Below are positions 10,131 through 23,787 of a stretch of 64,000 nucleotides of DNA, piece after piece. The stretch is from Schlesneria paludicola DSM 18645 (GTDB taxonomy: Bacteria; Planctomycetota; Planctomycetia; Planctomycetales; Planctomycetaceae): NCBI GenBank assembly GCA_945869955.1, contig CAMBQP010000002.1:1-64000 (forward strand), given 5' to 3'. Within the stretch, counting starts at the first letter, position 1. The number at the start of each line of letters is the position of its first letter. The notes under the pieces were generated by a model. It saw only the letters and a list, made by a program, of their open reading frames with translations, ran no database searches and was not told the origin of the DNA. Position numbers and translations under genes: made by a program.

Positions 10131-11528
10131 ATGTCCACATTTCGGAAAGCATCAACCCTGCAGGAAGTGGCTGGGGAGACCGAAGTCCAACCTCTGAAAC
10201 AAGGGGACGTGCGTTATGTGGATCTTTCGGCTGGCCGCGATACGCGCGACCTAAGTCGATTGCGGCTTAAGCTGGAGGACTGTGTCAAAAGAGGAGACTT
10301 CGCCAAGATCGCGTTCACTGGTCATCGTGGTTGTGGGAAATCCACCGAACTTTACCGGATGGAGCACGCGCTGGCCCAAGAATTTTATTCCGTACATTTG
10401 TTTGTTGACGACAGTCTCTTGCACGCCATGGAGTATCCGGATCTGTTTCTCTGGATTGTCGAATCGGTGGCCAAACGTTTTTATGAAGCGTCCATTCCCG
10501 TCGATGATTCCGTCATCGACCGCGTCAGAGCTTGGTTCGAGCAAAAGGTTCAAATCACGGATGATGTTTCAAAAGCGGAAATGAAATTGGAAGCGGGCGT
10601 CGAGTCCAAAGCGGGTCTCTTCGGCCTTTTGTCATTGACTGCAAAATTAAAATCCTCGTTCATGGGAAGCACCGAGCGGCGGACAGAGATTCGTCGGTCA
10701 CTCAAAAATTATGCCAACGACTTGATCGATCGTATGAACGAGTTGTTTGACGCCGCACGGGCTGGACTGAAATCCGTAGGTAAGCCGGTCGAATTGCTGC
10801 TCGTGATCGATAACCTGGATCGATTATTGCCACAGGTTGGTCGAGAATTGTTCCTGGAAAACGGCGAACTCTTGAAACGGCCAAAAGTTCACCTGATTTA
10901 CACCGTCCCGCTGCCGATGATTCTCGCACCGAGCAGTATTAACAACACTTTTGACACCTTTACGCTCCCGATGGTCAAGTTGCAGTATCCCGACGGCAGG
11001 CGTTTCGACAAGGGGCGTGATGTGCTGAAAAAGTTGTTGTCCGCCCGATTGGAACTCGACTCGATTTTCAAAAGCCCTGCGGTCATCACCGAACTGATTC
11101 GCATGTCAGGAGGTTCGGTGCGTGATCTGATGCGACTGCTGAGCTATGCCCAGACCGATGCCCGCGTCGATTACAAAGCGATGATTGATCTGCCGAGTGT
11201 CAGAAGCGCGGTGAAAAAGACGCGAATTGATTATGAAAGGATGCTGTTTCCGGTTGAGGTCTACTTCCCCATGCTGTGCAGGGTGCATCAAACCAAGCAG
11301 GATCCCATGCGACCCGGTGAAAAAATTGACCGCACCAGCGTACAAAGCGCACGAGAATTCTTCAGTGATCTGCTCTTCAACGGGTCGGTTCTCGAATACA
11401 ATGGCGAGAAATGCTGGTATGACGTACATCCGATCGTACAATTGATCGATGCGTTTCAGGAAACTCTGAAGAAGCTCTCAAATGACGCAGCGGAAACCGC
11501 AGAAGACCCCCAGTCCGCCGCAGGATGA
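10131..11528 (+). CDS. AAA/STAND-like P-loop ATPase, partner of downstream NACHT protein
   Basis: Walker A GHRGCGKST, Walker B LLLVIDNLDRLLP; RBS-like aggaag upstream of ATG; 3' end overlaps the next ORF by 47 nt. Confidence 0.75.
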   Translation: MSTFRKASTLQEVAGETEVQPLKQGDVRYVDLSAGRDTRDLSRLRLKLEDCVKRGDFAKIAFTGHRGCGKSTELYRMEHALAQEFYSVHLFVDDSLLHAMEYPDLFLWIVESVAKRFYEASIPVDDSVIDRVRAWFEQKVQITDDVSKAEMKLEAGVESKAGLFGLLSLTAKLKSSFMGSTERRTEIRRSLKNYANDLIDRMNELFDAARAGLKSVGKPVELLLVIDNLDRLLPQVGRELFLENGELLKRPKVHLIYTVPLPMILAPSSINNTFDTFTLPMVKLQYPDGRRFDKGRDVLKKLLSARLELDSIFKSPAVITELIRMSGGSVRDLMRLLSYAQTDARVDYKAMIDLPSVRSAVKKTRIDYERMLFPVEVYFPMLCRVHQTKQDPMRPGEKIDRTSVQSAREFFSDLLFNGSVLEYNGEKCWYDVHPIVQLIDAFQETLKKLSNDAAETAEDPQSAAG

Positions 11529-14292
11529 CCGCGACCGTAGTCGACGCGGGTTGACTTTCTTCCTGGCGGATTCGGTTGGCTTTCGGCTTGGCTTGGCCAC
11601 CTATGATGTCCCCTCCACGCGAACGCAAGAATTATCCCTGGCCGTCACCGCGGCGGCGAAGGACAAGATTCACCTGACGGTCCTGAATCTGGCTGATCAT
11701 TCGCTGGATGTGAATCTCTTGCAACAACTGGAAGCTCATCTTCAGACGATCCCTACCGAGCCAGGCTGTCAACGAGCGATTGCCGTGACCGGTATCGAGG
11801 CTGTGATGGAGGCGGGATCGCGACTTGATCCGCCTGACCGGTTTGCGATTTTGCATCGAACCAACCTGCAGCGGGACGCCTTCGTCAGTCGCGCCCCTGT
11901 TCCTGTGGTCCTGTGGATCAATCGACCAAGCCTGTCAGCACTGGCGCATGAAGCCCCCGACTTTTGGCATTGGCGAACGGGAAGTTTCGAATTTTTCTCG
12001 AATGGCGAAGATCTTGAATCGGTTCTGGCGACGACCGTCGCCCCGGCGCTGGCCCGATTTCTGATGTGTCACTACCTGCAACTTCCGGCGATCCCCTTTG
12101 GCGGATTGTCCGAGCTTGCTGCGCACACGGTCCAGAGCCCCTTTCTTTTGCGCGAAGCGGTCAGGGAATTCGAAAGCCTCGGCGAGAAAATTGCCGCACG
12201 GCTGACTTCGGTCTTTACAGCAGAGGCTTTGGATGAATCCGGTCGCAATGAGGTGGCCAGAATACTGGGACATACGCTGAACCATCCGGTTCAGTTCCCA
12301 AACCAAACGGGACACGACCTGAACCCGACCCAGCTTGCGGATCAGTTTCGTCGGGTGGCTCTTCCCGAACAGGCCCCTCTTTCGAGCGAACAGCAACGAA
12401 TGTTCGATCGTGCGCTCGATCAGGTTGTTCGCTACCTGGTCAACCTGGCTTCGGCACTACCAAAATTCCAATCGGCCGTGGCAAAAGAGAGTCTCGAACG
12501 ACTGAGTCGGATTGGTAATGACCTCGACCAAACACTGAATGCGGTGGAATGGATTGAACGGATCGTCGTTGCCGATTCTCGCCGCTTGGCGACTCGATAC
12601 GAAGCGGATTACCGCCAGGGGGTAATCCGGAACCTTGATTATCTTGAACTTTTCGGGGCGGATATTCCCCCTGAAGCGAGTCGGCACGCCTTATCGGTGG
12701 CTTACGTCTCACTGAATCTGCAAGACGAGGATCTGCAAGACGAGGATCTGCGAAACGAAAAAACCGCAAACTTGGTGGGTGTTTCACTCCCTGTCGAGAG
12801 GGTCTTGGAACAGCTTTCCCCCGTTTCGGGTCGGTTGCTGATCCGGGGCGAGGCAGGAAGTGGGAAAAGTACCTTGTTTCGCTGGATCGCGATTCAGGCC
12901 GCTTATGGCGGGGTGATTTCGCAATCGGGAGGAGGGCTTTACGTCCTGAAACAACCAGGGATTCCCGCGACCGAAGAGACTCGATACCCGCATGCTCTCC
13001 ATCGGCAAATTTTGGAAAAACACTGGTCTCTGCGGATTCCGTTTCTGATTCGGCTGCGAGAATTCACCGAAGGGACGTTTCCCGAGCCTCAACAATTTCC
13101 TGAACAGGTTGTTCGCCAGATCGGGCCCCCCCTCGACGAGGGGATCGTGGATATTCTTCAAGAGGGGCGAGCGATCATTCTGCTTGACGGAATTGACGAA
13201 ATTCCCCGTGCGCATCGCGCGGCGATGAAAACCTGGTTGACCTCGTTCACGGTCTTGTATCCCCATAATGACTATCTGGTCAGCACGCGGCCACAGGCGG
13301 TAGGCCTTGGTTGGCTGGCGGATCTGGGATTTCGCGAAGCAACGGTCAATCCGATGAGTAACGAAGATCAGTCCCAGCTGATTGACAAGTGGCATCAGGC
13401 GGTCGGTGAAGAGCTGAAGCGACGGGGTGACCATGATCCCCGTCTGGCAGGTATGGCCGAGCGATTGAAAGCCAAGTTGCACGAACACCCTTCGATCAAT
13501 CGATTAGCGCGATACCCACTGCTGGCATCCATGATCTGTGCATTTCATCGACGCAATCACGAGCATCTTCCCCCCAGCGAGATCGAGTTAACCGAGCGAC
13601 TCTGCTTCATGCTGCTTGATGACCGCGACCGCTTGAGTGGCCTGTGGGACGAGTCTTTCCCGACCCCCTATTCCAAACTCGAATATCGTCATAAAAAGCT
13701 GATCGTGCAGGACTTGGCTTATGATATGATGGTACATCGGCAGACTTCCTCGTTGACGCGTAACGAGGCCTTGAAAATGGTCGAAGAGCGGCTGGCCCGT
13801 TTGGGAAAATCTGCCGACCCGGAACTGATCATGACCGGCCTGATTGAACGAAGCGGGATGCTGCGTGAACCCTCGCCCGGACGAGTCGATTTTCTGCATA
13901 ACACCTTCAAGGAATATCTCACCTCGTTACGGCTGGTTGCCGAGCAAAACGAGAATTTGCTTGCTAGCCATTGGAGCGACGCGGAATGGCGTCCAGTCAT
14001 CCTGTTCGCTGCCGCAACCGAAAAACAAGGGTTTGCAACGAATTTAATCCGGCTGATTCTGACGTTTAAAAATGACGATCTGAGCTTGGCGACGGAGTAC
14101 GACTCTGTTCGTTTTTCTGAATTACCACAGCATTTGCAGAATGGTTCGGTGACACTGAACGAAGCCCGGCAACGCCAACTGTTGGCACTTCGTTGTCGAT
14201 CCGTCGCTCTGGATCTGGATCCCGAGTTACAAACCCAACTCGACAAATTACAGGAGCACCTGTTTCCCCCCCCGAGATTTTGCCGAGGCTGA
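11482..14292 (+). CDS. NACHT-domain NTPase (bNACHT/NLR-like), reading frame ends just after a C8 tract
   Basis: Walker A IRGEAGSGKSTLFRW, Walker B/NACHT signature AIILLDGIDEIP, sensor-like YLVSTRPQAV; terminates PPPRFCRG* immediately after cccccccc at 14266-14273. Confidence 0.85.
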   Translation: MTQRKPQKTPSPPQDDRDRSRRGLTFFLADSVGFRLGLATYDVPSTRTQELSLAVTAAAKDKIHLTVLNLADHSLDVNLLQQLEAHLQTIPTEPGCQRAIAVTGIEAVMEAGSRLDPPDRFAILHRTNLQRDAFVSRAPVPVVLWINRPSLSALAHEAPDFWHWRTGSFEFFSNGEDLESVLATTVAPALARFLMCHYLQLPAIPFGGLSELAAHTVQSPFLLREAVREFESLGEKIAARLTSVFTAEALDESGRNEVARILGHTLNHPVQFPNQTGHDLNPTQLADQFRRVALPEQAPLSSEQQRMFDRALDQVVRYLVNLASALPKFQSAVAKESLERLSRIGNDLDQTLNAVEWIERIVVADSRRLATRYEADYRQGVIRNLDYLELFGADIPPEASRHALSVAYVSLNLQDEDLQDEDLRNEKTANLVGVSLPVERVLEQLSPVSGRLLIRGEAGSGKSTLFRWIAIQAAYGGVISQSGGGLYVLKQPGIPATEETRYPHALHRQILEKHWSLRIPFLIRLREFTEGTFPEPQQFPEQVVRQIGPPLDEGIVDILQEGRAIILLDGIDEIPRAHRAAMKTWLTSFTVLYPHNDYLVSTRPQAVGLGWLADLGFREATVNPMSNEDQSQLIDKWHQAVGEELKRRGDHDPRLAGMAERLKAKLHEHPSINRLARYPLLASMICAFHRRNHEHLPPSEIELTERLCFMLLDDRDRLSGLWDESFPTPYSKLEYRHKKLIVQDLAYDMMVHRQTSSLTRNEALKMVEERLARLGKSADPELIMTGLIERSGMLREPSPGRVDFLHNTFKEYLTSLRLVAEQNENLLASHWSDAEWRPVILFAAATEKQGFATNLIRLILTFKNDDLSLATEYDSVRFSELPQHLQNGSVTLNEARQRQLLALRCRSVALDLDPELQTQLDKLQEHLFPPPRFCRG

Positions 14293-15199
14293 GGCACTAG
14301 CCACTGCGGGAAATCTGGCTGTCGAATGGCTGAAATATCGACCGAATGACGCATTCTACGAAAGAGCTGCGTCTGTTCACGCCCTAAGGTTGATCGATAC
14401 ACCACTCGCACGGCAAGCGATCAACGATTATTTGCCGGATCAAAACGAGCAAGTCTTTTACGAGCTTGCGAAAGCCGTTGATGCTCTCGCAATACCAGCG
14501 GTGGTCGATTCGTTAGTGACGCCATGGCGTGCAGAGAATAGTGGCTGGTTTGAAACCCGTCTGTTAGCTCATAGTCTCGTCACAACAATCAACCACTTAG
14601 TCGCCACAAAAAGCATCACGCTACTCGACTTGTCTTGGACCAGAATCAATAACTTATCGACACTGTCTCGTTTTCCTCAACTCAAACATTTGAATATATC
14701 TCATACCGAAATCGCAGACATTTCGCCACTACAATATCTGAGGAATCTCGAAATACTGGATTTATCAGTCACATTCGTGGATAACTTGAAGCCGATTAGC
14801 GAATTGCGAAATCTGAAGTCTTTATTCTTATCGTCAATTCGTGCAATTCAAGGCGTCTCGAACATCGAATCATTGCAATTCATCGGACTGATAGCGGGGG
14901 GGAATATAATCTCTGGAGAGCCCCCAATCTTTACTTTTGAAATTTCTGATTGGTTCGCACCTTTATTCAGCTTTGTGCCACTGCCGCACTTGAAAAAAGT
15001 TTGGCTGAGATGGGGTTGGGGTCCAACAGGCGACAATCTTGCCTTCGAGCTCAGGGATGAAATCAACGAGTTTCACCGACTTCGCGAACAACAGAATCTT
15101 CCTCCGGTAGAAATCGTCTTTGATTTTCAAATCGACCGTCGCTTTTTTGGATTGGAGTGTGGCGAGTCGAGTACTGGGGCTGTCACGTTGCCGGATTAG
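14274..15199 (+). CDS. Leucine-rich-repeat C-terminal part of the NACHT protein (in frame if one C is removed from the C8 tract)
   Basis: Frame open from the C tract through DFAEAEALATAGNLAVEWLKYRPNDAFYERAASVHALRLIDTPLAR into LRRs: ITLLDLSWTRINNLSTLSRFPQLKHLNISHTEIADISPLQYLRNLEILDLS. The separate ORF call starts at a TTG (14390) with no evident RBS. Confidence 0.75.
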
Positions 15200-15603
15200 A
15201 AGTAACGGCCTCATTCGTGACACGAAGGGAGCCGTCTCTTTTTCTTGTCAGAAGAATGAATCCGAGATTGCTCGGTCTTGCCAACTCTGATCAGCGATTG
15301 GGCGGCACCTCGGCGATGGTGATGTTGGTCTGGTTTTTAGGCTAACCGCCGTCTGTTTTCTGGCCGTTCATTTGCCGCTGGCGACCTCGTCAAACACTCG
15401 TGGATCGACGACAGCCATGTCGCGAATTCTGGTCAATTTCGGTGAATCGTGCGTGGTCTGGTAAACTGCGGGCAACCGAGGGGACTCGAGGGAACACGGG
15501 GGTTTGCGTTGCGTTTCCTCAGTTGAAATTGCGATTCGTGGTGAAATTGGTTACGCTTAATGTGTGACTGTTGATTGATTGCTGACTTCGCGGAGAAGAT
15601 CCG

Positions 15604-22542: not shown

Positions 22543-23787
22543 ATGATCGAGATGTCGACTGCTGCGGAATTTGTTCCTGCTACACAGGCAGAATTGGCTC
22601 GGTATATGGCCGAAAATTTTGCTGGACCGAAAAAAACGATTTGTCCTGTGGGTGGCCGTACCGCTCTCTATTATGGTTCCGCTGCGACACCGGATGTCGT
22701 CGTTCCTCTTTCCAATTTGAAGCGAGTGATCGATTACCCCGCTCGTGACATGACGATTACGGTGGAAGCGGGGCTCCGGATTGATGAATTGCAGGCGCAA
22801 CTCGCCGTGGAACGACAGCGTTTGCCGATCGATATCGCCCAGCCCGGTCGAGCGACACTCGGGGGGGCATTGGCCACGAACACTAGTGGTTCGCGGCGAT
22901 TCGGATATGGTACGTTTCGTGACTATGTGATCGGCATCTCGGCGGTCGATGCCTCGGGGCAACTGTTCAAAGGGGGGGGCCGCGTTGTCAAAAATGTGGC
23001 GGGCTATGATCTTTGCAAACTGCTGGTCGGTTCGCATGGTACGCTGGGAATCGTCACGCAGGTCACGCTGAAACTCAGGCCGCTTCCCGAATCATCGGCT
23101 CTGGTCTGGTTCCATTTTTCGTCGTTCGACCAGATTGAACAGGGGCTGCAGATCCTGCTCAAGTCCGAGACGCGCCCGGTTGCGATTGATGTCTTGAACA
23201 ATCCCGCAGCCAGATTGATCTCGATGGCGGCCCGCACGGCCACCACACCGTCCATGCTGGTGCTGTGTGTCGGGGTGGAAGGAACGGCGCGCGAGGTCGA
23301 TTGGCAGGTCGAGATGCTGCGAAAGGAACTGGCCCCGTCTGGTCCATCCAAGTCGGACCGAATCGACCACGAAGATGCCACCCGGTTGTGGGAGGGACTG
23401 ACCGAGTTTCCGACTTGTGCTGACGACCCCCTAACGTTTCAGGCCAATCTACTGCCGTCGCGGGGGATGGAATTTGCCAGCCGGGCAACTCAACTCGGTG
23501 TCGCCATTCAGGTTCATGCCGGAAATGGGATTATCGTCGGGCAATTGCCTGATGAGGCAGCGACGATCGAGCAAACCACCGCGATCTTGAATGAGCTTCG
23601 TCAGCTCGCGAGAGCAGCACGAGGGAATCTGGTGGTAATGCACTGTGACCCCGAATGGAAATCACGTATGCCGATGTATGGCGATTCTGAGCCAAGCTGG
23701 GGTTTAATGCAAAAACTGAAACGCCAACTCGATCCATTGGGGCTGCTCAATCCCGGTCGCCTGATCGGGGCGTCGGTAACGAGTTGA
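22543..23787 (+). CDS. FAD-binding oxidoreductase (glycolate oxidase GlcE-like)
   Basis: ICPVGGRTALYYG, TLGGALATNTSGSRRFGYGTFRDYVIGISAVDASGQLFKGGGRVVKNVAGYDLCKLLVGSHGTLGI. Start at an internal Met (22543 or 22552). Confidence 0.88.
   Translation: MIEMSTAAEFVPATQAELARYMAENFAGPKKTICPVGGRTALYYGSAATPDVVVPLSNLKRVIDYPARDMTITVEAGLRIDELQAQLAVERQRLPIDIAQPGRATLGGALATNTSGSRRFGYGTFRDYVIGISAVDASGQLFKGGGRVVKNVAGYDLCKLLVGSHGTLGIVTQVTLKLRPLPESSALVWFHFSSFDQIEQGLQILLKSETRPVAIDVLNNPAARLISMAARTATTPSMLVLCVGVEGTAREVDWQVEMLRKELAPSGPSKSDRIDHEDATRLWEGLTEFPTCADDPLTFQANLLPSRGMEFASRATQLGVAIQVHAGNGIIVGQLPDEAATIEQTTAILNELRQLARAARGNLVVMHCDPEWKSRMPMYGDSEPSWGLMQKLKRQLDPLGLLNPGRLIGASVTS

Follow-up and report, generated by a model that had tools for sequence, protein, structure and literature searches.

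Layout of the locus and position of the frame break

The window, i.e., the whole stretch of 64,000 nucleotides of Schlesneria paludicola DSM 18645 that was analyzed (contig CAMBQP010000002.1), carries a gene for a putative P-loop ATPase followed by a gene for a NACHT-LRR receptor that, in this assembly, is not contained in a single open reading frame. The features of the locus are as follows:

10131–11528, forward strand: upstream P-loop ATPase gene, KAP/Sll1717-like (family matches below cut-offs)
11482–14292, forward strand: first part of the broken gene, with the N-terminal domain, NNH1, NACHT and a C-terminal helical region, ending at a premature TGA (product of 936 amino acids)
11482–12009, forward strand: N-terminal domain, ca. 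175 amino acids, without a Pfam match; predicted fold AAA-like, at modest confidence
12025–12537, forward strand: NNH1 (NACHT N-terminal helical domain 1), residues 182–352, PF22733, E 2.7e-20
12835–13401, forward strand: NACHT NTPase domain, residues 452–640, PF05729, E 2.5e-15, above the Pfam cut-off
14266–14273, forward strand: run of eight C residues (C8), the site of the frame break
14276–15199, forward strand: second part of the broken gene, in the +1 frame, with a linker homologous to that of fused relatives followed by LRRs
15200–15248, forward strand: terminator-like hairpin with a T-rich tail directly 3′ of the LRR stop, −16.6 kcal/mol, z −2.69

The last 47 nt of the ATPase gene are shared with the beginning of the receptor gene. 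The NACHT and LRR parts are separated at the C8 run, which lies inside the gene and has different reading frames before and after it. The NACHT frame reads CCC CCC CCG AGA TTT TGC CGA GGC TGA across the run, so that the open reading frame ends at position 14292, with the premature stop 16 nt past the run. In the +1 frame, the same nucleotides read (C)CGA GAT TTT GCC GAG GCT..., which corresponds to RDFAEAEALATAGNLAVEWLKYRPNDAFYERAASVHALRL... This frame is open from upstream of the run, through 307 codons, to a stop at 15197–15199, and it encodes the LRRs, which were recognized in a Pfam scan with a score exceeding the cut-off (LRR_4, E 1.6e-9). Re-reading of the sequence reproduced all coordinates, frames and translations that the initial annotation had given for the C8-split gene, and the order of NACHT and C-terminal LRR proposed there is borne out by matches above the Pfam cut-offs.

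Two other homopolymers of the same gene, C7 at 13126–13132 and G7 at 14896–14902, are read in frame. An AGGAG sequence is found at 14252–14256, 9 nt upstream of the C run, with no start codon at a suitable distance from it. The hairpin at 15200–15248 was detected by its folding score and was missed by a simple terminator scan. No notable structure follows the C8 run or the premature stop at 14292 (z −0.71). A PADLOC search returned no meaningful match.

The two halves in homologous genes

The best homologues of the NACHT part within the same family of genomes, with 30–51% identity, were examined together with their surroundings. Seven of them are neither cut by a contig end nor decayed, and in all seven a single open frame holds both the NACHT and the LRR half, with the two halves of the window gene adjoining at the same conserved junction peptide. 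This peptide is LFPP(R)-DFAEAEAL in the window, LFPPRSMVEAEAL in homologue L039 and LFPPRSMAEADAL in homologue L038. An alignment-based search of named genomes retrieved 60 further loci, many of them from actinomycetes. For the more distant relatives the tail was judged by its length; the linker-LRR profile matches only part of them. Sixty-four relatives cover the NACHT module to its end, and 61 of these continue in the same frame for at least 150 amino acids. Two of the remaining three have tails of 127 and 137 amino acids, and the third, L151, ends early, near a contig end. Thus, relatives are fused exactly at the junction that carries the C run in the window, as anticipated when a single NACHT-LRR product was initially proposed.

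The second part contains no ATG anywhere in its frame (14276–15199), and no usable start with a ribosome-binding site was found in it. Since the homologues are fused, no downstream ATG is available and the hairpin follows position 15199 rather than 14292, it follows that this is a single broken gene and not two. We therefore conclude, with good confidence, that 11482–15199 was one gene in ancestry. That a NACHT protein and an LRR protein are encoded by two separate genes is barely credible. A TTG at 14390 could serve as the start of the second, but no ribosome-binding site precedes it at a usable spacing, the conserved linker already starts at 14276, ahead of every start codon, and every uncut homologue of the same family is fused. 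The separate-gene reading was rejected as contradicted by these fusions.

Only one close NACHT-LRR homologue is present in another genome of the genus (L044, 7753–9742). As assembled, this copy contains a frame change and an in-frame TAG and no G/C run above 5, and the locus ends at a contig end.

The C run and the origin of the break

No homopolymer longer than 6 was present within 90 nt of the junction in any of the 64 relatives, a result with which a tract specific to the lineage of the window is still compatible. The Pro-Pro-Arg codons of the homologues are mixed and include CCA CCA CGA, CCA CCG CGC, CCT CCA CGG and CCG CCA AGA. In the genome of the window, CCC accounts for 34% of Pro codons and CGN for 93% of Arg codons, from which a run of 7 C at Phe-Pro-Pro-Arg is expected by chance about once in ten.

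We counted coding G/C runs of at least 8 in 321,395 codons (1.26 Mb) of the same genome and found 36, while ca. 53 were expected as the mean over synonymous codon shuffles at the genome's codon usage. Such runs are mildly avoided, not enriched. The C8 run itself is therefore unremarkable; what is unusual is that it breaks a gene. Taken together with the relatives, these data do not support the conservation of a slippery site, nor a habit of contingency loci across the genome.

The frame on either side of G/C runs was evaluated on sampled stretches of the genome with a walk-out score and a threshold of 10. By this measure, the NACHT C8 is called on one side only, the LRR side scoring 8.9. For 22 of the sampled G/C runs of at least 8, the frame is clearly the same before and after the run, and none of the other sampled runs of this length clearly breaks a gene. 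The only shift call at such a run, a C8 in L095, was rejected as a parallel because it marks an ordinary junction between two genes; shift calls at G/C7 runs in L112, L115 and L090 were likewise read as ordinary gene junctions. Systematic miscalling of such runs is therefore unlikely. The initial annotation had argued the same from a G8 at 22972–22979 that is read in one frame, and the argument holds on the wider sample, with which one sporadic error is still compatible. Frame-broken pairs without a nearby ATG numbered 13 candidates in the 1.26 Mb, most of them with GTG or TTG starts, and none contains a run of 8. The longest G/C runs in the sampled genome include a G12 whose surroundings show no clear coding frame (L118, 12561–12572) and a C10 that is in frame within a gene (L090, 9050–9059).

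We consider it modestly probable that sporadic slippage from 7 to 8 C broke the receptor, and that the locus represents a recent loss of function and not a maintained switch. The ancestral gene would have encoded the extra N-terminal domain, NNH1, NACHT and LRR in one frame. A short C run would have been formed in it by the codons CCC CCC CGN, and slippage would have added one residue. The resulting shift of frame would have brought translation to its early stop, with loss of the LRR half. Since neither half carries a further lesion, the break would be recent; the extra base would then be real in the cells and the short product presumably inactive. Counted against slippage with loss of function are the otherwise undamaged state of both halves, as would also be seen after an error or with a reversible switch, and the fact that 8-base G runs switch a Streptomyces phage-defence gene (PMC4365076). 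It is less likely, although it deserves serious weight, that the eighth C is a sequencing or assembly error and that the cells carry 7 C and an intact receptor gene. The assembly is a draft of 394 contigs, homopolymer runs are the commonest site of single-base errors, and an otherwise intact pair of halves is what such an error would leave, but the 22 other runs in frame and the lack of any other clear gene break speak against it. That the 8-C gene yields some full-length receptor, because ribosomes undergo a programmed +1 shift or transcription slips at the run, is in our view very improbable. CCC-C stretches are in general prone to +1 shifts, and the AGGAG upstream of the run could be counted in favor of such a mechanism; the spacing at the prfB +1 site is, however, shorter than that between AGGAG and the run here, the structure after the run is not notable, and the homologues, which are fused in the zero frame and have mixed Pro codons, need no shift.

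Selected phase variation, in which 7 C would give the full receptor and 8 C an NTPase without LRR, the run being kept as a switch, is improbable in our estimation. The run lies at a domain junction, has a length of 8 and separates halves that are otherwise intact, and there is a precedent in pglX, where an 8-G tract acts as the switch of the Pgl phage defence (PMC4365076). Yet no examined homologue has the run, long coding runs fall below expectation in the genome, codon usage alone would produce 7 C at this site at the frequency given above, and the homologue L044 has decayed without any long run. The genus has two known copies, both of them broken, which favors loss of function over switching. 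Because eight bases can suffice, as in pglX, a lineage-specific switch keeps a small share of the probability. The fuller proposal of a lineage-specific phase-variable bacterial NLR, with C7/C8 alternation at the NACHT-LRR junction, that also works with the upstream ATPase is, if anything, less probable. Of what was initially proposed for the locus, a single gene split exactly at the C run is supported, while a designed toggle and a programmed frameshift are not, given the lack of a conserved run, the lack of enrichment and the unrelated lesions of L044.

Relation to known receptors and the N-terminal module

The term bona fide bacterial NLRs is already in use for bacterial proteins whose NACHT module shares a frame with LRRs (PMC12169576). 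The window receptor resembles these bNACHT proteins in having a NACHT module followed by LRRs, and differs from them in being split by one base in this assembly and in having an extra N-terminal domain and an upstream ATPase gene. Its relatives are widespread in bacteria; besides genomes of the same family, actinomycetes and proteobacterial bins carry them. In the PDB, the profile of the NACHT region matches NLRC4 (E 3.9e-6). The order of NACHT and LRR is the same in this animal NLR, whereas the similarity is distant and the N-terminal part of the window protein is, as far as tested, no CARD. By analogy, sensing or restraint would fall to the LRR half, the NACHT part would undergo assembly once nucleotide is bound, and signaling would be the task of the N-terminal part. 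In a few homologues extra Pfam domains are present: two have AAA_21/AAA_15 (OLD/AbiEii-like) and one has a calcineurin-like phosphoesterase, and the three longest aligned homologues (L041, L042 and L043) are their likely carriers. Judging from these matches, the extra domains may be such as one expects of exchangeable effector parts.

In Streptomyces coelicolor, G-tract variation in pglX switches the Pgl phage defence at 1e-2 to 1e-4, and the active strain carries 8 G (PMC4365076). The common feature is a run of eight G/C residues inside the gene of a phage-defence protein, a role that is only presumed for the window receptor. In pglX, however, switching is documented and the active state has 8 G, whereas the window shows a single state, 8 C, which is the broken one.

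The N-terminal domain (11482–12009) is missing from the closest NACHT-LRR homologues. It contains the motif PVVLW...APDFWxWRSGxFxF, and its AAA-like fold was predicted with a mean pLDDT of 75.6 and a TM of about 0.5, with no obvious Walker A. Similar domains are encoded directly downstream of relatives of the ATPase (10131–11528) in three genomes of the family (L224, L229 and L230), and in two of these copies the domain is fused to TPR. A further copy, in L225, is fused to a TIR domain. The loci grouped with this observation are positions 10131–12009 of the window, L224, L229, L230, L225 and L047. This arrangement suggests a module of ATPase and adaptor with interchangeable C-terminal parts. 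It is plausible that in the window this module is joined to a NACHT-LRR receptor, and that the two genes constitute a putative two-gene defence system.

The locus adds one more NACHT-LRR receptor to the bacterial NLRs. Its annotation as two genes would mislead, since a lesion has divided what is by origin one gene. If it were true that the run switches, the gene would be a bacterial example of a phase-variable NLR-type receptor, of which a literature search of open-licence papers returned none. Of greater originality may be the lead given by the extra N-terminal domain, which is also found on TPR and TIR proteins and beside an ATPase gene.
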